15,293 nt of DNA from Holophaga sp. (lineage in GTDB: Bacteria > Acidobacteriota > Holophagae > Holophagales > Holophagaceae): contig JARLGP010000078.1 in NCBI GenBank assembly GCA_031292735.1, positions 1 through 15,293 of the forward strand, given 5' to 3'. Made by a program: the position numbers and the translations under genes. This document shows, piece after piece, positions 4,021-14,207 of the stretch (the stretch's first letter is position 1; each line of letters opens with the position of its first letter). The notes under the pieces are model-generated. The model did no database searches, was not told the DNA's origin, and saw only the letters and a list, made by a program, of their open reading frames with translations.

Positions 4021-5292
4021 ATGGGGCCCGCCACCGAGTGCAGCATCGTCATCCCCGTCTTCAACGAGGCCGGGAACCTGGAGCAGGTGCTCCACGACCT
4101 GGGCCGGCAGGGCGGCCGCGACGGTTCCTGGAGACATCCGTTCGAGCTCATCCTGGTGGACAACAATTCCACGGACCGGACGCGCCGGATCATCGCCGAA
4201 GCCTCGGGCCGGGACCTGGGCTACGAGGTGATCGGCCTCCAGGAACCCCGCCAGGGCGTGGCCCACGCCCGGAAGGCCGGCATGGACCTGGCGGTGGCCC
4301 GGAGCCTGGAACGCGACCGGCGGTGCGGCCTCCAGCGCCCCTTCTACCTGCTTTCCGCGGACGCGGACTGCCGGCTGGAGGAGGACTGGGTGGACGGCCT
4401 GGTGGAGAAGCTCCAGGAAACCCGGGCCGCCCTGGCGGTGAGCCACTACTACTATGCCGAAGCCGACTTCCCCCACCAGCCCCGGTTGTTCGGGATCCTT
4501 GCCCTCATCGTGAAGGCCAGGCAGCGCGCCTGGGCGGTCCTGGGCGGGTTCCCCGACGGCAAGGGCTTTGCCGTCACCCGGAACGCGTACCGGAAGGTGG
4601 GCGGCATCGAGCTGTTCTACCAGGTGCGGGATGGCGAGTTCGTTTGCCACCTGTCCGACGACTGGGATTTCGGGATCAAGCTGAGGGCGAGCGGGGAGGA
4701 ACTGGTGTTCGCGCCCCGGTCGCGGGTGCGGATCCATCCGCGCAGGGTCCATGAGGGCCTGGACGACATGCTGGAAGGGGTGGCCTACGGGAGGAACGGC
4801 ATCATCACCATGACCGACTACCGTCCCCTGCGGCCGGCGCCCCGGGAGGATCTTTCGGCGGCCCAGGCCGCGCGGCTGTTTGCCAATGCCATCAAGGATT
4901 TCACCCCCAAGAACATCATCCTGCCCCTGCTGCTGACCCCGGCGATGCTGGAACGCCCGCCGGTGCTCGCGTTCCTGACTCCCGCCCTGTGCGCCAGGCT
5001 GGCCGCGAGGATCGCGGAGATCCAGGACCAGATGCAGATCAGGAACTTCCTGCCGATCCACCGCTACAAGACACCCAGCTACCGGCTCTACCTGGAATTC
5101 CGGGAGGACCTTTTCCAGCGCATGCGCGTGATGATCGACCCGGCCATCGGAACGCCTCCCCCCTTGCCGGGATGCCTGGAGCGGGTGCTGCTGGCGGACC
5201 CGGAGGCCTTTGCCGATTTCGTCTACTATTTCGCGGAAGACCGGGAGTCGGGGGAGGCCCACAACTACTTCTGCAATGGGGGCGTCTTCTAG
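4021..5292 (+). CDS. GT2-family glycosyltransferase with a long C-terminal extension
   Basis: The protein has 423 residues. The N-terminal GT-A fold is clear: SIVIPVFNEAGNL (8-20), LILVDNNSTDRT (43-54), the metal-binding D-A-D at 114-116 (SADADC) and the acceptor/catalytic acidic motif DDWDFGIKL (213-221). By family it moves a sugar from a nucleotide-sugar donor to an unknown acceptor, inverting the anomeric centre, on the cytoplasmic face. Residues from about 240 to 423 form a mostly helical extension that I do not recognise. No convincing transmembrane segment is seen. A GGGGGTG ribosome-binding site precedes ATG 4021, four bases after the end of the broken GT4-like gene. It presumably belonged to one pathway with that gene and the radical SAM gene. 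Its stop (TAG 5290-5292) overlaps the stop of the convergent hcp gene. Confidence 0.85.
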   Translation: MGPATECSIVIPVFNEAGNLEQVLHDLGRQGGRDGSWRHPFELILVDNNSTDRTRRIIAEASGRDLGYEVIGLQEPRQGVAHARKAGMDLAVARSLERDRRCGLQRPFYLLSADADCRLEEDWVDGLVEKLQETRAALAVSHYYYAEADFPHQPRLFGILALIVKARQRAWAVLGGFPDGKGFAVTRNAYRKVGGIELFYQVRDGEFVCHLSDDWDFGIKLRASGEELVFAPRSRVRIHPRRVHEGLDDMLEGVAYGRNGIITMTDYRPLRPAPREDLSAAQAARLFANAIKDFTPKNIILPLLLTPAMLERPPVLAFLTPALCARLAARIAEIQDQMQIRNFLPIHRYKTPSYRLYLEFREDLFQRMRVMIDPAIGTPPPLPGCLERVLLADPEAFADFVYYFAEDRESGEAHNYFCNGGVF

Positions 5293-6575
5293 GCCAGGGC
5301 CGCGGCCAGGTCGGCCTTGGGGTCCTTGCCGATCAGCTTGAGCCCGTAGGCATCCTGCAGGAGCTTGAACACGTTGGGGCTGATGAAGGCGGGCGCCGCG
5401 GGGCCCACGGCGATGTTCTTCACGCCCAGGTGGAGCAGGGTGAGCAGGACGGCCACGGCCTTCTGCTCGAACCAGGACAGGACGATGGTGAGGGGCAGGT
5501 CGTTGACCCCGCAGCCCAGGGTTTCGGCCAGGCCCGAGGCCACCTTGATGGCGCCGTAGGCATTGTTGCACTGGCCCATGTCCAGCAGCCGGGGCAGGCC
5601 CAGCAGGGTGCCGTAGTCGTGGCCCATGATCCGGAACTTGCCGCAGCCGAGGGTGAGGATGAAGGAGCTGTCCGGCGCGTTCTTGGCATAGTCGCTGTAG
5701 TAGTTGCGGCCGGGCTCGGCGCCGTCGCAGCCGCCGATGAGGAAGAAGTGGGTGAGCGACCCGGCCTTGACCGCGTCCAGGATGGCGGGCGCCGCGCCCA
5801 GGATCACGCTGTGGTGGAAGCCCACCGGGATCTTCGCGCCGGAGCGCTCGGGCAGGGCGCCCAGGGCCTTGGCCCGGGCGATCACGGCGGAGAAATCGTC
5901 GGTGGTGAGGCGCACGCTTCCGGGCACGGCGGTGGCCCGGGTGGTGAACATCCGGTCCCGATAGCTTTCCCTGGGCTCCTGGACGCAGTTGGTGGTGACC
6001 AGGAGGGCCCCGCCGAACGCCTCGAATTCCCGCTTCTGCAGTTGCCAGGCGCCGCCGAAGTGGCCGGCCAGGTTGGGATGGTTGGCCAGCTTGGGGTACA
6101 TGTGGGCGGGAAGCATCTCTCCGTGGGTGTAGACCAGCACGTCGGTGCCTTCCACCTGCCTCAGCAGGTCGGACAGGTCGAGCAGATCGTGCCCGGAAAC
6201 GAGGATGCCGGGCTGGGGCCGGGTGCCGGTGGGCACCTCCTTGACCTGGGGCTGGCCGAAGTGGGCCACGTGGGCTTCGTCCAGCATCTCCATGACCCGC
6301 AGGTTGTGCTTGCCGCATTCCAGCACCAGCTGGACCAGGGTGGGCACGTCGAAATTGACGTTGGTCATGGTGGCGAACAGGGCCTCCTCCATGAAGGCGC
6401 TGACGGTTTCATCCGAACGGCCCAGACGGCGGGCATGGTGGGCATAGGCGGCCATGCCTTTCAGGCCGTAGAGCAGGGTCTCCTGAAGCGACTGCACATC
6501 CTCGTCCTTGCCGCATACGCCATGATCCGTGCATCCCGTCCCGCTGGCCGCTTGCTCACACTGGTTGCAAAACAT
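5289..6575 (-). CDS. hcp: Hybrid cluster protein (hydroxylamine reductase family), short class III form
   Basis: The protein has 428 residues. The N-terminal [4Fe-4S] motif is C3-x2-C6-x8-C15-x5-C21. All hybrid-cluster ligands known from Desulfovibrio Hcp have counterparts: H129 (SGHD), E153 (THGEMLPAH), C197 (TTNC), C283 (IGGC), C311 (TLGC), C336 (GQCN), E370 and K372 (SWFEQK). The spacings H-E (24), E-C (44), C-C (28 and 25) and E-K (2) equal the D. vulgaris ones. About 115 residues are missing between the N-terminal cluster and the first His; this loss of a helical bundle defines class III, so it is not a damaged gene. By family it is cytoplasmic and acts in nitrosative stress, as hydroxylamine reductase, NO reductase or S-nitrosylase. 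The start is set at ATG 6575 (a 10-codon-longer frame exists) because GGAGGA sits just upstream and the first Cys pair follows directly. No partner hcr reductase gene is next to it. Confidence 0.95.
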   Translation of the reverse strand: MFCNQCEQAASGTGCTDHGVCGKDEDVQSLQETLLYGLKGMAAYAHHARRLGRSDETVSAFMEEALFATMTNVNFDVPTLVQLVLECGKHNLRVMEMLDEAHVAHFGQPQVKEVPTGTRPQPGILVSGHDLLDLSDLLRQVEGTDVLVYTHGEMLPAHMYPKLANHPNLAGHFGGAWQLQKREFEAFGGALLVTTNCVQEPRESYRDRMFTTRATAVPGSVRLTTDDFSAVIARAKALGALPERSGAKIPVGFHHSVILGAAPAILDAVKAGSLTHFFLIGGCDGAEPGRNYYSDYAKNAPDSSFILTLGCGKFRIMGHDYGTLLGLPRLLDMGQCNNAYGAIKVASGLAETLGCGVNDLPLTIVLSWFEQKAVAVLLTLLHLGVKNIAVGPAAPAFISPNVFKLLQDAYGLKLIGKDPKADLAAALA

Positions 6576-6582
6576 GGTGGCT

Positions 6583-6588
6583 TCCTCC
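6583..6588 (-). promoter_or_regulatory. Ribosome-binding site that fixes the hcp start
   Basis: GGAGGA on the - strand lies 7 bases before ATG 6575. The upstream in-frame ATG at 6605 has no such site, and starting there would add ten residues ahead of the first cluster cysteine. This favours the 428-residue protein. Confidence 0.8.
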
Positions 6589-6592
6589 GAAT

Positions 6593-6632
6593 GGACCCCG
6601 TGCATGGGGTCCCTGGATGGAAGTCTTCCAGG
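6593..6632 (-). promoter_or_regulatory. Two small hairpins in the hcp leader
   Basis: On the - strand there are perfect 7-bp arms GGACCCC/GGGGTCC with a 6-nt loop (6593-6612), and 6-bp arms CCTGGA/TCCAGG (within 6611-6632). They lie between the FNR-type box and the ribosome-binding site. The first ends only a few bases from the GGAGGA, so it could influence translation. No function can be assigned. Confidence 0.3.
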
Positions 6633-8510: not shown

Positions 8511-8632
8511 TCAGGCCAGGATGATGCCCCGCAGGTCGACGATGCCTTTCTGCGGGCAGCGGGTCACGCACGCCCGCAAATGCCGGTGCCGCCGCCGCGG
8601 GTGTGGGCCCTTGGCGGCGGCGCCGGGCTCAT
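8511..8632 (-). pseudogene. Eroded ferredoxin-like remnant overlapping the stop of the fused molybdenum hydroxylase gene
   Basis: An ATG (8632-8630) overlaps the TGA of the upstream enzyme gene as ATGA. The frame stops after about 20 codons, just past a Cys. In the neighbouring frame the text continues as ACVTRCPQKGIVDLRGIILA and stops at 8511-8513. Adding one G in the GCGGGCG stretch joins the frames to ICGACVTRCPQKGI, the CxxCxxxCP end of a bacterial [4Fe-4S] ferredoxin. Even when joined, the first cysteine of a full CxxCxxCxxxCP set is missing and the N-terminal part is low-complexity, so this is more likely a decayed fragment than an intact gene. A sequencing error in the G run is possible. 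A ferredoxin here would make sense as electron acceptor for an enzyme that lacks an FAD domain. Confidence 0.4.
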
Positions 8633-11313
8633 TTCCTGGCCTTCCGGTAGTAGGTCCCCTCCATGGGGAGCTTGTAGCGGAACACGCCGTCCATCTTGTA
8701 ATAGGCGTTCTGGCAGGCCGGGGCGGCCATGCAGCAGACGATCTCTCCGATTCCCTTGGCGCCGAAGGCCACGCCATCGGTGCTGTTCTTCTCGATGAGG
8801 TGGACCTTGACCGGCGGCATGAAGGTGGCCTTGGGGATCCCCAGCGTGCCCAGCTTGGCCTGGGGGATGCCCGCCTTCAGCGGGAAGTCCTCGGTGAGGG
8901 CGTAGCCGAGCCCCATGGCCACGCCGCCGTCCACCTGGCCTTCGGCGGAAAGGGGATTGATGGCCCTGCCGATGTCATGGGCGGCGATGACTTCCACCAG
9001 CTTGCCGGCGCCGTCGACCACCACCAGCTGGGTGGCGAATCCGTAGGCGATGTGGCTTACCGGGTTCGGCTTGGGCGAGCCCATGGGGTCGGATTTGAAG
9101 TCGAACTCCCCCTTGTAGGTCCGGCCTTCCAGCTCGGCCAGGCTGAGCCCCTGGTCCAGGTCGACCTTCAGCTTCAGGGAGGAGACCCGGGCCGCCTCCC
9201 CCGCGAAGGTGGTCTGCCGGGACGCGGTGGTGGTGCCCGAATCGGGGGTCAGCAGGGTGTCCGGATGCTCCACCTCCACCTGGTTGCGGGCCAGGCCGGT
9301 GACTTCGCATACGATCTGCAGCAGGACCGTCTGCACCCCCTGGCCGATGGCTCCGGCCGAGCACCGGATGTGCACCTTGCCGTCCAGGACGGCCAGGTTG
9401 CAGCGGCCGATGTCCGGCACTCCGACTCCGACCCCGGCGTTCTTCATGGCGGAGGCGATGCCCACGTGGAGGTCGGGGTCCGCTTCGTACCGCTCGAAGG
9501 CTTCCTTCACCGCCTCGAGGGTCTCCACCATGGCCGTGCCGGGGTCGGCGATCTGCCCGTTGGGGAGGGACTGGCCGGGCCGGATGGCGTTGCGGTAGCG
9601 GAATTCCCATCCCGACAGCCCCACCTTTTCCGCCAGCTGGTTGATGAGGCACTCCACCGCCAGGCAGGACTGGGTCACGCCGAAGCCGCGGAAGGCTCCG
9701 GCCGGGGGGTTGTTGGTGTAGTACGCAGTCCCTTCCACATCCAGGTTCTGGTAGTTGTACGGCCCCCCCGCATGGGTGCAGGCCCGCTGCAGGACCGGCC
9801 CGCCCAGGGAAGCGTAGGCGCCCGTGTCGGACTTGATCCGCGCCTGCAGCCCCAGCAGGATGCCGTGCTCGTCGCAGCCGATGCGGCCGTGGATCTCCAT
9901 GGCGTGGCGCTTGGGATGGTAGTTGATGCTCTCCTGCCGGCTGAAACTGACCTTCACCGGGCGCTTGCATAGGTAGGCGCAGAGGGCGGCCTGGTGCTGC
10001 ACGCTCATGTCCTCCTTGCCGCCGAACCCGCCCCCCACCACGGCGCTCTGGATCCGCACCTTGTCCAGGGGCAGCCCGAGGTAGTTGCTCAGCTCGTGGT
10101 ACTCGTCGTAGATGCCCTGGCCGCCCGTGATGACTCGGATCCCGTCGCCATCCGGCAGGCCGATGGCCGTTTCCGGCTCCATGAAGGCATGCTCCACGGG
10201 CGGCACGAAGAAGGTCCCCTCCACCACGTGCGCGGCCCGGGCCAGGGCGTCCTCCGCGTTCCCCCGCTTGATGAGTTCGTGGTAGAACACGTTGTTGGTG
10301 GGCACCACCCATTTGCCGAACTGGGAGAACCCTTCCGCATGCACCTGGTGGGCGCCGGGGACCGCGGCCTCGTCGCAGCTGCAGATGGGTTCCAGCTCCT
10401 CGTACTGGACCTGCACGGCCTTGGCCGCCGCCTCGGCCTGGTCCCGGGTTTCCGCCACCACCATGGCCAGCGTGTCCCCGCAGCACTTGGTCTGTTCCCC
10501 CACGGCGATCATGCCCGGCCAATCCTGGGCCAGATGGCCGATGTAGCGTTTGCCCGGGATGTCCTTGGCCGTGTAGACCGCCACGACGCCCGGCATGGCC
10601 AGGGCCTTGGCCGGATCGATGGACAGGATCTTCGCCCGGGCGAACCTGCTGAACACGTTCTTGCCGTACAGCATCCCCTCGAAGGAGAAGTCGTCGGCGT
10701 ACTTGGCCAGGCCCAGGGCCTTGGGGCGTGCGTCCACCCGGAACACCCGGTCGCCGACCTTGCCCAGGGGGCTGGTTTCCGGGATGTCCAGACCCTCCCG
10801 GAACATCCGGGCGGCCAGCAGCACGGCATCGATGATCTTTATGTAACCTGTGCACCTGCAATAATTGTTTCGAATGGCAAATTTCACTTCGTCGCGGGTG
10901 GGGGCGGGGTTCTGGTCCAGCAGGTTCTTGGCGCACACGACCATCCCGGGAATGCAGAATCCGCACTGCACCGCGCCCGCGGCCGAGAACGCGTAGGCGA
11001 GCACCTCCCGCTCCCGCTCGCTGAACCCCTCGATGGTCAGGATCTTCTTGCCGGCCAGCTTGGACAGCTTCGGCACGCAGGAGCGCACCGTCCGGCCGTC
11101 GATGATGAGCGTGCAGGTGCCGCAGGCGCCCTCCTTGCAGCCGTTCTTCACGGAAGTGATGTTCAGCACGTCGCGCAGGAAATCGATCAGGAGCATGTCC
11201 CGGTCCGATTCGTAGTCCCTGCCGTTGATGGTGACCCGGAGGGCCACCCCGGGTCCAAGGGGCGCCTGGGCCACGGCCTTGCCGTCCATGCCGGGGACAG
11301 AATGGCCGGTCAT
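8629..11313 (-). CDS. Fused [2Fe-2S]-molybdopterin hydroxylase, selenium-dependent xanthine dehydrogenase/MOP-like
   Basis: The protein has 894 residues. First [2Fe-2S] cluster: C59-x4-C64-x2-C67-x11-C79. Second: C117-x2-C120 (QCGFC) with C152-R-C154 (CRCTG). The molybdopterin part starts near 185 (VGDRVFRVDARPK) and has GGGFGGKED, AFRGFG and GQGVQT. The catalytic Glu is E857 in FGAKGIGE. Length and order match D. gigas aldehyde oxidoreductase (MOP) and the anaerobe selenium-dependent xanthine dehydrogenases. EREREVLAYAFSAAGAVQCG favours the latter, which hydroxylate purines. No FAD domain is present, so electrons must leave through a separate FAD protein or ferredoxin. It is cytoplasmic, with no Tat signal. 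ATG 11313 is used because AGGAGAC lies 4 bases upstream; longer frames would enter the leader. The first 13 codons copy the start of the divergent Mo-subunit gene. The substrate is inferred, not shown. Confidence 0.88.
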   Translation of the reverse strand: MTGHSVPGMDGKAVAQAPLGPGVALRVTINGRDYESDRDMLLIDFLRDVLNITSVKNGCKEGACGTCTLIIDGRTVRSCVPKLSKLAGKKILTIEGFSEREREVLAYAFSAAGAVQCGFCIPGMVVCAKNLLDQNPAPTRDEVKFAIRNNYCRCTGYIKIIDAVLLAARMFREGLDIPETSPLGKVGDRVFRVDARPKALGLAKYADDFSFEGMLYGKNVFSRFARAKILSIDPAKALAMPGVVAVYTAKDIPGKRYIGHLAQDWPGMIAVGEQTKCCGDTLAMVVAETRDQAEAAAKAVQVQYEELEPICSCDEAAVPGAHQVHAEGFSQFGKWVVPTNNVFYHELIKRGNAEDALARAAHVVEGTFFVPPVEHAFMEPETAIGLPDGDGIRVITGGQGIYDEYHELSNYLGLPLDKVRIQSAVVGGGFGGKEDMSVQHQAALCAYLCKRPVKVSFSRQESINYHPKRHAMEIHGRIGCDEHGILLGLQARIKSDTGAYASLGGPVLQRACTHAGGPYNYQNLDVEGTAYYTNNPPAGAFRGFGVTQSCLAVECLINQLAEKVGLSGWEFRYRNAIRPGQSLPNGQIADPGTAMVETLEAVKEAFERYEADPDLHVGIASAMKNAGVGVGVPDIGRCNLAVLDGKVHIRCSAGAIGQGVQTVLLQIVCEVTGLARNQVEVEHPDTLLTPDSGTTTASRQTTFAGEAARVSSLKLKVDLDQGLSLAELEGRTYKGEFDFKSDPMGSPKPNPVSHIAYGFATQLVVVDGAGKLVEVIAAHDIGRAINPLSAEGQVDGGVAMGLGYALTEDFPLKAGIPQAKLGTLGIPKATFMPPVKVHLIEKNSTDGVAFGAKGIGEIVCCMAAPACQNAYYKMDGVFRYKLPMEGTYYRKARK

Positions 11314-11328
11314 TGGAGTCTCCTGAAG
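11275..11328 (-). repeat. Start-region repeat, copy A2 (ribosome-binding site plus first codons of the fused enzyme)
   Basis: This 54-bp unit runs from CTTCAGGAG through GGCAAGGCC on the - strand. It matches copy A1 (11343-11396) at 42 of 54 bases, 68 bp away in tandem, and also matches the start of the divergent + gene (11901-11954). The first codons read M-T-G-H-S-V-P-x-x-D-G-K-A. That resembles the normal N terminus of a Mo subunit rather than the [2Fe-2S] domain they precede here. Confidence 0.75.
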
Positions 11329-11381
11329 CCGGCGAGGGCCGTGGCCTTGCCGTCGCTCCTGGGGACTGGGGTACCGATCAT
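11310..11381 (-). CDS. 23-codon upstream ORF / truncated copy of the Mo-subunit start, coupled to the fused enzyme
   Basis: ATG 11381 has its own CAGGAGA ribosome-binding site. It encodes 23 residues beginning MIGTPVPRSDGKA and ending in a TGA that overlaps the ATG of the fused enzyme as ATGA. The first 13 residues match the divergent gene's start (MIGTSVPRRDGRA), and the nucleotides match at 46 of 54 positions. So it arose as a copied gene start, not as a random short ORF. It may act by translational coupling, delivering ribosomes to the enzyme start, or it may be an inert by-product of duplication. The reading frame has stayed open and both ribosome-binding sites are intact, which favours translation. 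No protein function is expected. Confidence 0.5.
   Translation of the reverse strand: MIGTPVPRSDGKATALAGFRRLQ
11318..11324 (-). promoter_or_regulatory. Ribosome-binding site of the fused molybdenum hydroxylase gene
   Basis: AGGAGAC on the - strand lies 4 bases before ATG 11313. It is embedded in the last codons of the 23-codon upstream ORF, so ribosomes finishing that ORF end exactly at this start (ATGA overlap). Confidence 0.75.
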
Positions 11382-11396
11382 TGGGGTCTCCTGAAG
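11343..11396 (-). repeat. Start-region repeat, copy A1 (upstream ORF start)
   Basis: This is the second copy of the ribosome-binding-site-plus-first-codons unit on the - strand. It is closer to the + strand gene's copy at 11901-11954 (46 of 54 bases) than to its tandem neighbour at 11275-11328 (42 of 54). That suggests the inverted copy came first and a tandem duplication or older divergence produced the other. Confidence 0.75.
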
Positions 11397-11405
11397 ATGC
11401 ATCCA

Positions 11406-11425
11406 GGTTCCCGGATGGGGGAACC
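11406..11425 (-). promoter_or_regulatory. Hairpin just upstream of the upstream-ORF ribosome-binding site
   Basis: Perfect 7-bp arms GGTTCCC/GGGAACC surround a 6-nt loop. The arm-B leader has a hairpin with nearly the same arms at the matching place (11871-11891), while the sequences between differ. It may be a separate stem that controls access to the ribosome-binding site about 15 bases further on. Confidence 0.45.
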
Positions 11426-11454
11426 ACCGTGTTCGGGGGAGGTCGGAAGCGTCC

Positions 11455-11562
11455 CCCTGCACAGGAACTTGCGTTGAGCGTCGCGATCCGGGGAATCCGG
11501 AGGATTCCCGTGCTTCTACTCGGCCAGGGTGCAGGGAACCATATCGGCGATCTCGCGGCTCC
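11455..11562 (-). promoter_or_regulatory. Candidate structured leader RNA (riboswitch-like), copy A, ahead of the fused enzyme
   Basis: Predicted by eye. Closing stem CCCTGCAC (11529-11536) pairs with GTGCAGGG (11455-11462), 8 bp perfect. Inside it is hairpin GGGAATCC-TCC-GGATTCCC (11491-11509), 8 bp perfect. On the 5' side is stem GGAGCC/GGTTCC (11557-11562 with 11535-11540), sharing two bases with the closing stem. The enclosed 60-nt core is 58/60 identical to copy B. Differences inside the stems mostly preserve pairing. The downstream leader and a hairpin near the ribosome-binding site could be the expression platform. I could not match the conserved core to a riboswitch consensus from memory; the Moco RNA motif is the obvious family to test, given the genes. 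Confidence 0.6.
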
Positions 11563-11577
11563 ACTGCTACAAAGGGG

Positions 11578-11605
11578 ATCATATCGAATTCCCATCTGCT
11601 GTCCA
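11578..11605 (-). promoter_or_regulatory. Sigma-70-type promoter of the fused enzyme transcript
   Basis: On the - strand, TGGACA (11600-11605) is followed by a 16-bp spacer and TATGAT (11578-11583); each hexamer is one base from consensus. The predicted start is near 11571, giving a leader of about 190 nt to the upstream ORF and about 258 nt to the enzyme gene. Confidence 0.65.
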
Positions 11606-11664
11606 TCAAAAACACGGGTTCCCGAGGGCCCCCGGCCCAGGCGAACCCTCCCTGGCCGAAAAAT

Positions 11665-11684
11665 AATACATGTTTCGATGTATT
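11665..11684. promoter_or_regulatory. Second, overlapping palindrome in the operator island
   Basis: 7-bp arms AATACAT/ATGTATT with a 6-bp spacer share their right half with the larger palindrome at 11674-11701. The island therefore holds three similar half-sites in a row. That suggests cooperative binding of one regulator, or a site that can be bound in two registers. Confidence 0.45.
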
Positions 11685-11701
11685 TTCATAAATACATCGA
11701 A
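11674..11701. promoter_or_regulatory. Perfect 12-bp-arm palindromic operator between the divergent molybdenum hydroxylase genes, ModE-like layout
   Basis: Arms TTCGATGTATTT and AAATACATCGAA flank TCAT. The site lies in an AT-rich island (about 11655-11712) inside very GC-rich DNA. Its inner 24 bp begin with CG, end with CG and carry TAT/ATA at the positions where the E. coli ModE operator of modA does. From memory, 14 of 24 positions agree. The centre is near -37 relative to the + promoter, so a bound protein would cover its -35 region; it is about 116 bp upstream of the - transcript start. ModE control would fit genes that need molybdenum cofactor, but a TetR-, GntR- or XdhR-type purine-responsive regulator is equally possible. 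Confidence 0.55.
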
Positions 11702-11709
11702 TGAAATTT

Positions 11710-11718
11710 TGGTATGAT
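11710..11718 (+). promoter_or_regulatory. Extended -10 promoter of the three-subunit molybdenum hydroxylase operon
   Basis: TATGAT (11713-11718) is preceded by TG-G, an extended -10. The -35 position, AAATAC, is poor and lies inside the palindromic operator. The -10 and following CCCC-TTGTAGCAG match the opposite promoter exactly or nearly so, but the -35 regions are unrelated. The two promoters therefore share a core and differ in upstream control. The predicted start is near 11725, giving a leader of about 190 nt. Confidence 0.6.
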
Positions 11719-11733
11719 CCCCCTTGTAGCAGG

Positions 11734-11842
11734 GGGGCCCCGAGGTCGGACGTTTGGGCTCCCCGCACCCTGGCCGAGTCGAAGCACGGGAATCCTCCGG
11801 GTTCCCCGGATCGCGACGCTCAACCCATTGCCCGTGCCGGGG
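11734..11842 (+). promoter_or_regulatory. Candidate structured leader RNA (riboswitch-like), copy B, ahead of the three-subunit enzyme
   Basis: It has the same architecture as copy A. The 5' stem is GGGGCC/GGCTCC (11734-11739 with 11757-11762). The closing stem is CCCCGCAC (11761-11768) with GTGC-C-GGGG (11834-11842), with one bulged or mismatched C. The inner hairpin is GGGAATCC-TCC-GGGTTCCC (11788-11806). Relative to copy A, the inner hairpin changes A-U to G-U, and the 5' stem changes A-U to G-U and G-U to G-C; all keep pairing. The closing stem turns one U-A pair into a C next to a bulged or mismatched C. The 60-nt core is 58/60 identical while sequence on both sides is poorly conserved. 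This is the pattern expected of selection on RNA structure or on a ligand pocket. Confidence 0.6.
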
Positions 11843-11870
11843 GATGCACCCGAACACCTCCTGGCGCACC

Positions 11871-11891
11871 GGTTTCCCGCTTTCGGGAACC
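11871..11891 (+). promoter_or_regulatory. Hairpin just upstream of the Mo-subunit ribosome-binding site
   Basis: GGTTTCCCG pairs with CGGGAACC (one bulged T) around a CTTT loop. It is the counterpart of the hairpin at 11406-11425. It ends 13 bases before the AGGAGG, so it could take part in controlling translation start. Confidence 0.45.
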
Positions 11892-11900
11892 CGCATATGC

Positions 11901-11954
11901 CTTCAGGAGGCCCCGATGATCGGCACCTCAGTCCCCAGACGCGACGGCCGGGCC
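11901..11954 (+). repeat. Start-region repeat, copy B (ribosome-binding site plus first codons of the Mo subunit)
   Basis: This is the + strand member of the three-copy unit CTTCAGGAG...GACGGC. Here the encoded MIGTSVPRRDGRAKVLG is a normal N terminus for a molybdenum hydroxylase large subunit. This copy is therefore the likely ancestor of the two - strand copies. Confidence 0.75.
11905..11910 (+). promoter_or_regulatory. Ribosome-binding site of the Mo-subunit gene
   Basis: A perfect AGGAGG lies 5 bases before ATG 11916. It sets the start there and excludes an in-frame extension of 54 codons through the leader. Confidence 0.85.
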
Positions 11955-14207
11955 AAAGTCCTTGGAACGACCTGCTATGCCTGCGACAAGACGCTGCCCG
12001 GCCAGCTGCGCGGTGTGACCGTGCGTTCCAAGGTGCCCCGGGCCGTCCTCAAGGGCATCCGGTTCGCCGACGGGCTGCCCTGGGATGAGTTCACCATCGT
12101 CACCGCGGCCGATATCCCGGGCCAGAACCGGGTTGCGGCCATGGTGCTCGATCAGCCCTTCCTGGTCGGGCTGGGCGAGGAGATCGCCCATCCCGGCCAG
12201 GCGGTGGTGCTGCTGGCCCACCCGGATCCGCAGCTGGCGGAGAAGGGCCGCCAGGCCGTGACCCTGGAGGTGGAGGAGCTGCCGGCGGTGCTGGACATCC
12301 AGTCGTCCATCGACCGGGTCCAGGTGATCCACGGCACCGACAACATCCTGAAGGAATTCCGGGTGGACCGGGGCGATCCGGACGCCATGTGGGACCGGGC
12401 CGCCTGGATCATCGAGGGCGAGTACCGCACCGGAGCCCAGGAACACGTCTACCTGGAGACCAACGGGATCCTGGCCAGCACCCACGGCACCGGGGATGCC
12501 CGGGAGCTGGAGGTGTCCGGTTCCATCCAGTGCCCCTACTATGTGCATTCGGCCTTGAAGCTGCTGTTCGGCCTGCCCGACCAGCGGGTGCGGGTGACCG
12601 CCTTCGAACTGGGCGGCGGCTTCGGCGGCAAGGAGGACTATCCGTCGGTGATCGCCGGCCACGCCGCCCTGCTGGCCTGGAAGTCGGGCCGGCCGGTGAA
12701 GCTGATCTACGACCGGGAGGAGGACATGGCCTGCACCACCAAGCGGCATCCCTCCCGCACCCGGATCAAGGCGGCGTTCGACGCGGACGGGAAATTCCTG
12801 GCCGTCGAGACGGACATCGTGTACGACGGCGGCGCCTACGTCACGGTCTCCCCGGTGGTGGCCCAGCGCGGAACCCTGGCTTCGGGCGGGGTCTACAACA
12901 TCCCCAATGCCCGCGTCCATGGCCGGGCCATGGCCACCAATTCGCCCCCGCCGGGCGCTTTCCGCGGTTTCGGCGGCCCCCAGAGCGAGTTCGCCATCGA
13001 GCGGCACATGGACGCCTGCGCCCGCAGGATGGGCCTGGACCCGGTGGAGCTGCGGCGCCGCAACTTCCTGAAGATCGGCGATTCCCTGGTGTTCGGCCAG
13101 GTGATCAAGGAGAACCTGGACCTGGGCGGCATCATGGACCGGGTGCTGGGCGAGATCGGCTACCGCGAGAAGCTGGCCGCCTTCCAGGCCCACAATGCCA
13201 CCGACGATCCGGTCAAGTGGGGGGTGGGCTTCGCCGTGTGCATGCACGGCTGCGGCTTCACCGGCGGCGGCGAGGCCTACCTGGCCTCGGTGGTGGGGGT
13301 GGCGGGGCTGCCCGACGGCCGGGTTTCCATCCTGGCCTCCAACACCGAGATGGGGCAGGGCCAGCAGACCGCCTTCAGTCAGATCGCCGCCGAGGCGCTG
13401 GAGGTGCCCATGGACTTCATCGAGATCGCCCCGGTGGATACCCGCTATGTGCCCAACAGCGGGCCCACCGTGGCCTCCCGCAGCACCATGATCGTGGGCA
13501 AGCTGCTGGAGGAGGCCTGCTATAGCCTGAAACAGGCGCTGTGCCAGGACCACCTGCTGGACCAGCACCATACGCCCGGGCAGTTCCAGGAGGCGGTCCG
13601 GACCGCCTACGCCCGCCACGGCTCGGTCAAGGCCTACGCCCAGTACCGCAAGCAGCCCCACATCGTGTGGGACGACCCCACCTGCCACGGCGACGCCTAC
13701 CCCACCTGCGCCTGGGCCTGCAATGCCGCGGTGGTGTCGGTGGACACCACCACCTGGGAGGTGAAGCTGGAGGACTTCGTGGCCGGGCAGGAGGTGGGCC
13801 GGGTGGTCAACCCGGTGCTGGCCACCGGCCAGATCGAGGGCGGCGCGGCCCAGGCCATCGCCTGGAGCCTGTGGGAGGAGGTGGTCATGCGCCAAGGCCG
13901 GATGGCCAACAACCAGCTGACCAACTACGCCGTGCCCACCATGGCCGACCTGCCCCGGCTGCGGGTCATCTTCTTCGAGGAGCCCCATCCGGCGGGCCCC
14001 GGCGGCGCCAAGGGGATCGGCGAGCTGCCCAACGTCACCCCGGCCCCCGCCGTCATCAGCGCCCTGCAGAATGCCCTGGGCAGCGATCTCCGGCTGGACG
14101 AGGTGCCCATGACGCCGGAACGCCTCCTGGGCCGGATCGAAGAGCGGCAGGCCGCCGCCGGCCCGGAACCCGCCCTGCACCCTGTCCTCACCGGGAGCGC
14201 CCCATGA
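11916..14207 (+). CDS. Molybdenum hydroxylase large (molybdopterin-binding) subunit, xanthine dehydrogenase XdhA type
   Basis: The protein has 763 residues, close to E. coli XdhA (about 750). The N terminus VPRRDGRAKVLG is the usual entry of this subunit. Molybdopterin-binding and active-site motifs: GGGFGGKED (233-241), AFRGFGGPQ (348-356), EMGQGQQT, and GGAKGIGE with the catalytic Glu at 703. The AFRGFGGPQ loop is of xanthine/aldehyde dehydrogenase type, not the AYRCSFR loop of aerobic CO dehydrogenase. It hydroxylates an N-heterocycle or aldehyde using water, passing electrons to the [2Fe-2S] and FAD subunits encoded directly downstream. No signal peptide is present, so it is cytoplasmic. 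The stop overlaps the next start as ATGA. Purine is the likeliest substrate class by family and by the neighbouring enzyme, but the sequence does not prove it. Confidence 0.9.
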   Translation: MIGTSVPRRDGRAKVLGTTCYACDKTLPGQLRGVTVRSKVPRAVLKGIRFADGLPWDEFTIVTAADIPGQNRVAAMVLDQPFLVGLGEEIAHPGQAVVLLAHPDPQLAEKGRQAVTLEVEELPAVLDIQSSIDRVQVIHGTDNILKEFRVDRGDPDAMWDRAAWIIEGEYRTGAQEHVYLETNGILASTHGTGDARELEVSGSIQCPYYVHSALKLLFGLPDQRVRVTAFELGGGFGGKEDYPSVIAGHAALLAWKSGRPVKLIYDREEDMACTTKRHPSRTRIKAAFDADGKFLAVETDIVYDGGAYVTVSPVVAQRGTLASGGVYNIPNARVHGRAMATNSPPPGAFRGFGGPQSEFAIERHMDACARRMGLDPVELRRRNFLKIGDSLVFGQVIKENLDLGGIMDRVLGEIGYREKLAAFQAHNATDDPVKWGVGFAVCMHGCGFTGGGEAYLASVVGVAGLPDGRVSILASNTEMGQGQQTAFSQIAAEALEVPMDFIEIAPVDTRYVPNSGPTVASRSTMIVGKLLEEACYSLKQALCQDHLLDQHHTPGQFQEAVRTAYARHGSVKAYAQYRKQPHIVWDDPTCHGDAYPTCAWACNAAVVSVDTTTWEVKLEDFVAGQEVGRVVNPVLATGQIEGGAAQAIAWSLWEEVVMRQGRMANNQLTNYAVPTMADLPRLRVIFFEEPHPAGPGGAKGIGELPNVTPAPAVISALQNALGSDLRLDEVPMTPERLLGRIEERQAAAGPEPALHPVLTGSAP

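Follow-up and report, generated by a model that had tools for sequence, protein, structure and literature searches.

Two divergent molybdenum-hydroxylase genes on a Holophaga contig have a common intergenic region in which one stretch of 60 nucleotides (nt), the core, is almost identical in both leaders. Why this stretch has stayed so similar, and whether the two transcripts carry a regulatory RNA, is the question addressed here for the 15,293 bases of contig that were analysed (the window). A sequence-only reading of this DNA had taken the contrast between the core and its drifted flanks as a mark either of selection on an RNA or of repeated gene conversion, and had proposed the core as a new cis-regulatory RNA.

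The near-identical core and the inverted duplication

The features on which the comparison of the two sides depends are these:
11916 to 14207, plus strand: molybdenum-hydroxylase large subunit, XDH-like, with the same start codon as its relatives
8629 to 11313, minus strand: selenium-dependent xanthine dehydrogenase family protein (TIGR03311; 1237.5 bits, cut-off 830.45)
11310 to 11381, minus strand: 23-codon stub open reading frame MIGTPVPRSDGKATALAGFRRLQ, resembling the start of the plus gene; its stop overlaps, through ATGA, the true start of the selenium-dependent gene that follows
11765 to 11824, plus strand: plus copy of the core, matching the minus copy at 58/60 positions
11473 to 11532, minus strand: minus copy of the core, read from 11532 to 11473

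The product of the plus gene, an XDH-like large subunit, falls under the cut-off of all 13 NCBIfam models that it matched. Seven of its eight fetched close relatives have the N-terminus MIG[TAS]SVPRRDG (the eighth is a truncated sequence), and a search of a second class (148 genomes, the class of G004) gave no homologue of the plus protein closer than the one already known at 66%. The near-identity of the core is real, with two differences in 60 positions, and the flanks have indeed drifted, their similarity lying far below 58/60. Between the two arms there are 62 differences, gaps counted, over 267 aligned columns, and the 60-mer is the longest stretch with no more than two; a stretch as long was reached in 27 of 100,000 permutations of all 267 columns and in 1 of 100,000 when only the 206 non-coding columns were used. 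The identity ends at a sharp edge between 11824 and 11825. The repeat itself exceeds the core, being a single imperfect inverted duplication that takes in promoter, leader, ribosome site and first codons, with arms 72-93% complementary across the promoter-leader-start region. On the minus strand, a 61-nt tandem repeat (11268-11396; copies 68 nt apart, 77% identical) duplicates the ribosome site and first codons once more, and this second copy of the gene start indicates that copying occurred more than once.

An outside copy of the leader separates the part of the core that is conserved from the part that is not. A covariance model (R1) built on both window leaders found, among 93 genomes of the class, four weak places in three genomes at E <= 0.1, of which one was kept (G072:C341:1806-1927, minus strand); it was judged homologous because TTCGATATGATC, which lies outside the model, sits where the minus promoter of the window also has TTCGATATGATC. 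The sequence GCACCCTGGCCGA at the 5' edge of the core matches this copy at 12/13 positions. Over the 47 nt of core that follow ACCCTGGCCGA (11778-11824 in the plus copy), the window arms match each other at 45/47, and the G072:C341 copy keeps only 27/47 of the plus and 25/47 of the minus sequence, so that we read the core identity after ACCCTGGCCGA as mostly local copying between the arms. Here, then, is a high-identity patch within diverged arms that is not conserved in the outgroup (one outgroup copy), as would be seen in a gene-converted inverted repeat, and passages of two papers (PMC8604942, PMC7202029) describe such local copying between the arms of imperfect inverted repeats. The near-identity of the 60 nt is best read, on the thin support of a single outgroup copy, as a by-product of copying between inverted arms. 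The promoter-leader-start region would have been duplicated in inverted orientation, probably from the plus to the minus side, and the patch re-copied later between the arms; the plus side is taken as the donor because seven of the eight fetched relatives of its protein begin with the same residues. Of the two causes offered earlier for the contrast between core and flanks, copying is the better explanation for the part beyond ACCCTGGCCGA, an outcome that the sequence-only reading had itself listed as counting against its proposal. That template switching or gene conversion simply re-copied a patch of 60-70 nt in an inverted duplication, and that the core needs no RNA function, we regard as probable given the complementarity of the arms, the sharp edge, the poor match in G072:C341 and the tandem second copy of the gene start.

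Could the core instead be conserved for what it encodes, an N-terminal extension or a leader peptide? Read by hand in the frame continuous with the plus gene, its two differences are synonymous. Against this, seven of the eight fetched close relatives start at the common N-terminus without any extension, searches found no protein with the same extension (85 candidates in one, none at E <= 1; no candidate in another), and the two copies are frameshifted relative to each other past the core. A coding role therefore seems very improbable.

A presumably 5'-terminal hairpin and tag in related genomes

The part that is shared across genomes lies at and upstream of the 5' edge of the core. It consists of a -10 box, exactly 7 nt, GTAGC, a hairpin (P1) and the tag ACCCTGG, and takes the following form in the window:
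11713 to 11718, plus strand: -10 box TATGAT of the plus promoter, 7 nt before GTAGC
11726 to 11768, plus strand: presumed transcript start G11726 and hairpin P1, present in both minimum-free-energy folds and in the five-copy covariation; pairs at 11729-11766, with extension possible between 11726/11727 and 11768/11767
11767 to 11773, plus strand: tag ACCCTGG, directly after P1
11578 to 11583, minus strand: -10 box TATGAT of the minus promoter, from a promoter scan and the five-copy comparison
11529 to 11570, minus strand: presumed transcript start G11570 and hairpin P1 (pairs 11567-11531), from the same folds and covariation
11524 to 11530, minus strand: tag ACCCTGG

The earlier choice of the 60-nt core as the conserved unit has accordingly to be given up, since only the 3' edge of the actual unit, the 5'-terminal hairpin with ACCCTGG, lies within it. 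This shows a trap: where the two arms of an inverted duplication are nearly identical, nucleotides may be marked as conserved wrongly, and an additional copy from outside shifts the element.

A second model (R2), comprising -10 box, P1 and tag, was built from three copies and run over the same 93 genomes, with up to 49 candidates scored per genome. Beyond the G072:C341 member of the model itself, it matched G072:C101 (31.3 bits) and C69 of G005, the Holophagaceae MAG bog_363 (28.8 bits); both precede a start codon in the same orientation, with 139 and 128 nt from tag to start. This makes five copies in three genomes, namely both window leaders, two G072 loci and one G005 locus. All five have the layout TA[T/A]G[A/C]T, 7 nt, GTAGC, stem, loop of 14-19 nt, stem, ACCCTGG, with GTAGC, ACCCTGG and the 7-nt spacing invariant in 5/5, and the end of the tag lies 98-142 nt before the first start codon; in the minus leader this distance is counted to the start of the stub, the true gene start lying 210 nt past the tag. 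From the 7-nt spacing to the -10 box we infer that transcription starts at or next to the G of GTAGC. Only for the minus strand did the promoter scan join a -35 box to the -10 box; it gave the plus -10 box no partner. Just upstream of the plus promoter, and only there, a perfect 12-bp inverted repeat, TTCGATGTATTT-TCAT-AAATACATCGAA (11674-11701), is operator-like in appearance.

The R2 scores of the two added copies are near noise, and it might be that they are unrelated and that only the window copies and G072:C341 are homologous. Some R2 match at E <= 1 occurred in 24 of the 93 genomes (up to 49 candidates scored in each). By sequence alone, G005:C69 reached 16.4 bits, the best after the model's own members, and G072:C101 reached 11.9 bits, under two chance matches. 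What speaks against chance is the joint occurrence of exact GTAGC, exact ACCCTGG, the -10 spacing, the stem, the orientation and the place before a gene. In a descriptor scan of 183 fetched loci (1.14 Mb, both strands, the five element loci included), 13 places were found and exactly five had no mismatch in GTAGC and ACCCTGG; these five had 9-10 of 10 stem pairs and 5-6 of 6 positions in the -10 box, and the next-best place had one mismatch, 8 pairs and 3 of 6. The reversed-motif control gave four places, each with two mismatches. A further 494 kb of G005 held no place without mismatch, 62 with one or two mismatches (42 in the reversed control) and a best R2 score of 14.9 bits. A chance resemblance of the two copies is therefore distinctly unlikely. 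Among the other R2 places, G001:C192 (27.7 bits) was dropped, as it is without the -10 box, GTAGC and ACCCTGG, and those in G002, G014 and G073 (below 27 bits) were rejected for absence of the motifs.

The sequence-only reading had looked to molybdoenzyme genes of relatives for further copies. Further copies exist and one helix in them covaries, but the three outside copies do not precede molybdoenzyme genes, and none was found at loci with XDH homologues. In 79 such loci from relatives, searched on both strands (some being the same place fetched twice and some cut by contig ends), the best E was 4.6, and a further model search of 74 of them gave a best E of 0.95 among sequences not in the model. 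The element may thus be young, or the genes under its control may change quickly. R2 found nothing above 18.3 bits on 23 stretches around related molybdenum-hydroxylase and neighbouring loci, and a reductase homologue in G070 is without the element. The leader DNA had no match in plasmids and phages, and in the five genomes of the fetched loci, 77 genomes of the family and 396 of the phylum its matches were of 15-39 nt only, chance-like; the nine best from the family and phylum searches were rejected because they overlap open frames of at least 191 codons. In viral contigs a 24-mer of the core had no match, and a degenerate 20-mer matched two stretches that R2 judged chance-like. Over the 93 genomes, the pattern GTAGCA..CCCTGGCCGA matched six times in six genomes, with the full element in G072 only (24 matches in the reversed control), and TATGATC..TGTAGCA matched in G072 and, without P1, in G002 (none in the reversed control). 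The G002 locus (L134, G002:C29) lies at a contig edge and has a window-like promoter, CGATATGATC-CAAG-TGTAGCA, with 6 instead of 7 nt to GTAGC and neither P1 nor ACCCTGG.

Copying between arms, probable as it is for the core, leaves unexplained why unrelated genes in G072 and G005 are preceded by P1 and ACCCTGG at an unchanged distance from the -10 box. Homogenisation of the part after ACCCTGGCCGA and a leader-RNA reading of the element are compatible. Since hairpin and tag recur before three further genes in two related genomes, they look like a small, undescribed control element, and we put at roughly one in two the probability that a few genes in one branch of the Holophagaceae use them as a new cis-acting leader RNA at the 5' terminus of their transcripts.

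Pairing in the leaders

Across the five copies, P1 has 11 pairs, of which three are invariant and five are changed on both sides in some copy, and 50 of its 54 cells pair. None of 500 shuffles reached its share of paired cells (92.6% vs 81.5% in shuffles), its cells changed on both sides (7 vs 2.8) or its covariation score (0.464 vs 0.263); the pairs changed on both sides (5 vs 2.5) were reached by 13 of 500 and the further pair types (9 vs 7.2) by 54 of 500. With the partner strand slid, 26-46% paired. These counts lean towards pairing because two of the copies were found with a model that contains P1; in the three copies known before R2, 3 of 11 pairs are changed on both sides, 46 of 500 shuffles reach this and the other measures, and the pair types are reached by 121 of 500. 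Template switching within hairpins can also produce compensatory changes, according to PMC8794818.

Folded singly, the two window leaders have 20 pairs in common; neutral simulations that keep the local substitution density average 3-5 such pairs and reach 20 in 2 of 300 runs in each direction. The common pairs are P1 (11729-11766), 11784-11837 and 11796-11810, not the outer closing stem that had been proposed around the core. That stem is weaker than proposed: its fourth pair is T-A in the minus copy and C-C in the plus copy, rescued only by a one-base shift, and both it and P1 need the strand CCC[T/C]GC, so that the two compete; the conserved stem is another. Two further helices of the sequence-only reading fared better: the 5' stem (GGAGCC/GGTTCC vs GGGGCC/GGCTCC) is real and is the part later found conserved elsewhere, and both window copies can form the 8-bp hairpin in which A-U becomes G-U. 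The consensus-fold energy was reached by 6 of 500 column shuffles for the whole leader, 40 for 11728-11845, 139 for the core with its closing stem and 206 for the core alone. Neutral simulations reached it in 11 and 7 of 300 runs for the whole leader, in 215 and 142 of 1000 for 11728-11845 and in 143 and 60 of 1000 for P1 alone. Neither window leader is more stable than its dinucleotide shuffles (z from -1.17 to +1.27), and many copies do not keep intact the helices that the five-way consensus fold has besides P1. When the G072:C341 and G005 copies are folded at full length, P1 does not dominate, its first pairs reaching 0.10-0.19. With the transcript cut short, both G072 copies form P1 at 90 and 120 nt and not at 60, and the G005 copy forms it at 60 nt and not at 90 or 120.

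Two other roles for the conserved 5' end can be set against this pattern. The first is a DNA element, an initially transcribed site bound by a transcription factor or a special RNA polymerase holoenzyme, for which a -10 box fixed 7 nt away in 5/5 copies would be in keeping. The arms of P1 vary in sequence and yet stay complementary, unlike a sequence-specific operator, and we hold this role to be quite unlikely. The second is a stem-loop that only shields the mRNA from decay, without regulation. Stem-loops of the ompA type at the 5' terminus stabilise mRNA, and P1 resembles them in beginning within a few nucleotides of the presumed +1 (3 nt in all copies); its loop of 14-19 nt is also unconserved. 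A mere stabiliser, however, needs neither an identical 7-nt tag nor an identical GTAGC, and in these invariant flanks of the stem the element differs from the ompA type, so that protection without regulation appears unlikely.

Taken as a leader RNA, the element has traits that fit a recognition site in nascent RNA: a covarying stem, an invariant tag and a 5' end that is likely fixed. Both window transcripts would begin with a 5'-terminal hairpin (GTA-P1), with the fixed tag ACCCUGG immediately after it. Hairpin and tag may be recognised in the nascent mRNA by a protein or small molecule, which would alter translation or stability. More tentatively, the tag might be a switching strand that pairs with the first codons in both window copies. 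Its predicted partner there lies within codons 4-8 of the first reading frame, at a place that varies with RNA length (0.98 for the middle pairs in the minus leader, 0.39 in the plus). The switching step stays conjectural because the other copies show no common partner of the tag; no downstream partner is common to all five. Nearer the ribosome site, the consensus fold of the two window leaders contains one more hairpin:
11871 to 11891, plus strand: hairpin before the ribosome site (GGTTTCCC/GGGAACC), possible in the minus leader too

The ribosome site is predicted to be strongly paired in the plus leader and partly paired in the minus leader. A predicted pairing joins CCTCCTGG (11857-11864) to the plus ribosome site CAGGAGG (11904-11910). 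No intrinsic terminator came out of a simple scan of 11300-11960.

Known RNA classes and the genes downstream

That the sequence-only reading did not recognise the core as a known riboswitch class agrees with the searches: a search of the 4227 families of Rfam 15 gave no match at gathering threshold in the window, and only chance-level matches at E <= 10 over 11380-11930 and at E <= 1 in the three loci with outside copies. The particular classes that had been singled out for a check gave no match either. Like the Moco RNA motif (RF01055), the element would be a leader RNA ahead of molybdenum-enzyme genes, but three of its five copies do not precede such genes and the covariance model has no match, either at gathering threshold in the window or at E <= 10 in the leaders. 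Riboswitches of the purine and xanthine type could in principle control purine-oxidising enzymes; the purine class is laid out as a three-way junction, whereas the element is a hairpin with a tag, and the window and leaders have no Rfam match to these families.

The genes behind the outside copies are a mixed group. Downstream of G072:C341 lies a gene in two pieces matching the HGD-D family and the double-cubane reductase model, the pieces scoring 150.3 and 244.8 bits against a cut-off of 350 set for the whole protein. A 151-residue protein without family, membrane-like by eye, follows G072:C101. The G005 copy precedes a transporter of the YeeE/YedE type (Sulf_transp) and then a TusA-like gene. 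These hint at sulfur, selenium or metal-cofactor redox enzymes rather than molybdenum alone, and the whole set (selenium-dependent and XDH-like enzymes, double-cubane-type reductase, YeeE/YedE-TusA pair, membrane-like protein) suggests control by sulfur, selenium or cofactor status. A likeness to selenium-trait gene sets (SDMH, YedE/YedF), as given in PMC5322559 and PMC2276186, lies in the TIGR03311 minus gene and in the G005 transporter with its TusA-like neighbour. The likeness stops short at the scores, since the transporter is under the selenium-specific cut-offs (137.4 of 350; 28.5 of 200) and the TusA-like protein under that of YedF (29.7 of 79), which makes sulfur transport equally possible. 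The selenium-dependent xanthine dehydrogenase is above its cut-off; the reductase and the membrane-like protein are not selenium-specific. A table in PMC5322559 has a 2-hydroxyglutaryl-CoA dehydratase subunit among the genes associated with a LysR-like gene. A limited literature search found no work linking double-cubane proteins, dehydratase and selenium.

It is conceivable, as a long shot, that the hairpin-and-tag RNA, beginning at or beside the first nucleotide of the transcript, senses the supply of sulfur or selenium, or a sulfurated or selenated cofactor intermediate, and so switches a small regulon of chalcogen-dependent redox enzymes and a transporter. Were this so, it would be a class of regulatory RNA for which a limited literature search found no published counterpart; no selenium riboswitch was found there, nor any work treating xanthine dehydrogenase, molybdenum cofactor, riboswitch and RNA motif together. 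If the element is real, the Holophagaceae would have an undescribed leader-RNA motif in which a compact covarying stem and an invariant tag go with a 5' end that is likely fixed. Its gene set would indicate that molybdenum, iron-sulfur and sulfur or selenium functions are controlled together, and for such control no regulatory RNA turned up in the limited literature searches. Elsewhere in the window, a protein of the hydroxylamine-reductase family (5289-6605, minus strand, 438 amino acids) is 89% identical to its counterpart in G005; its best stretch spans positions 135-544 only of the 546 in the family model, a short form.
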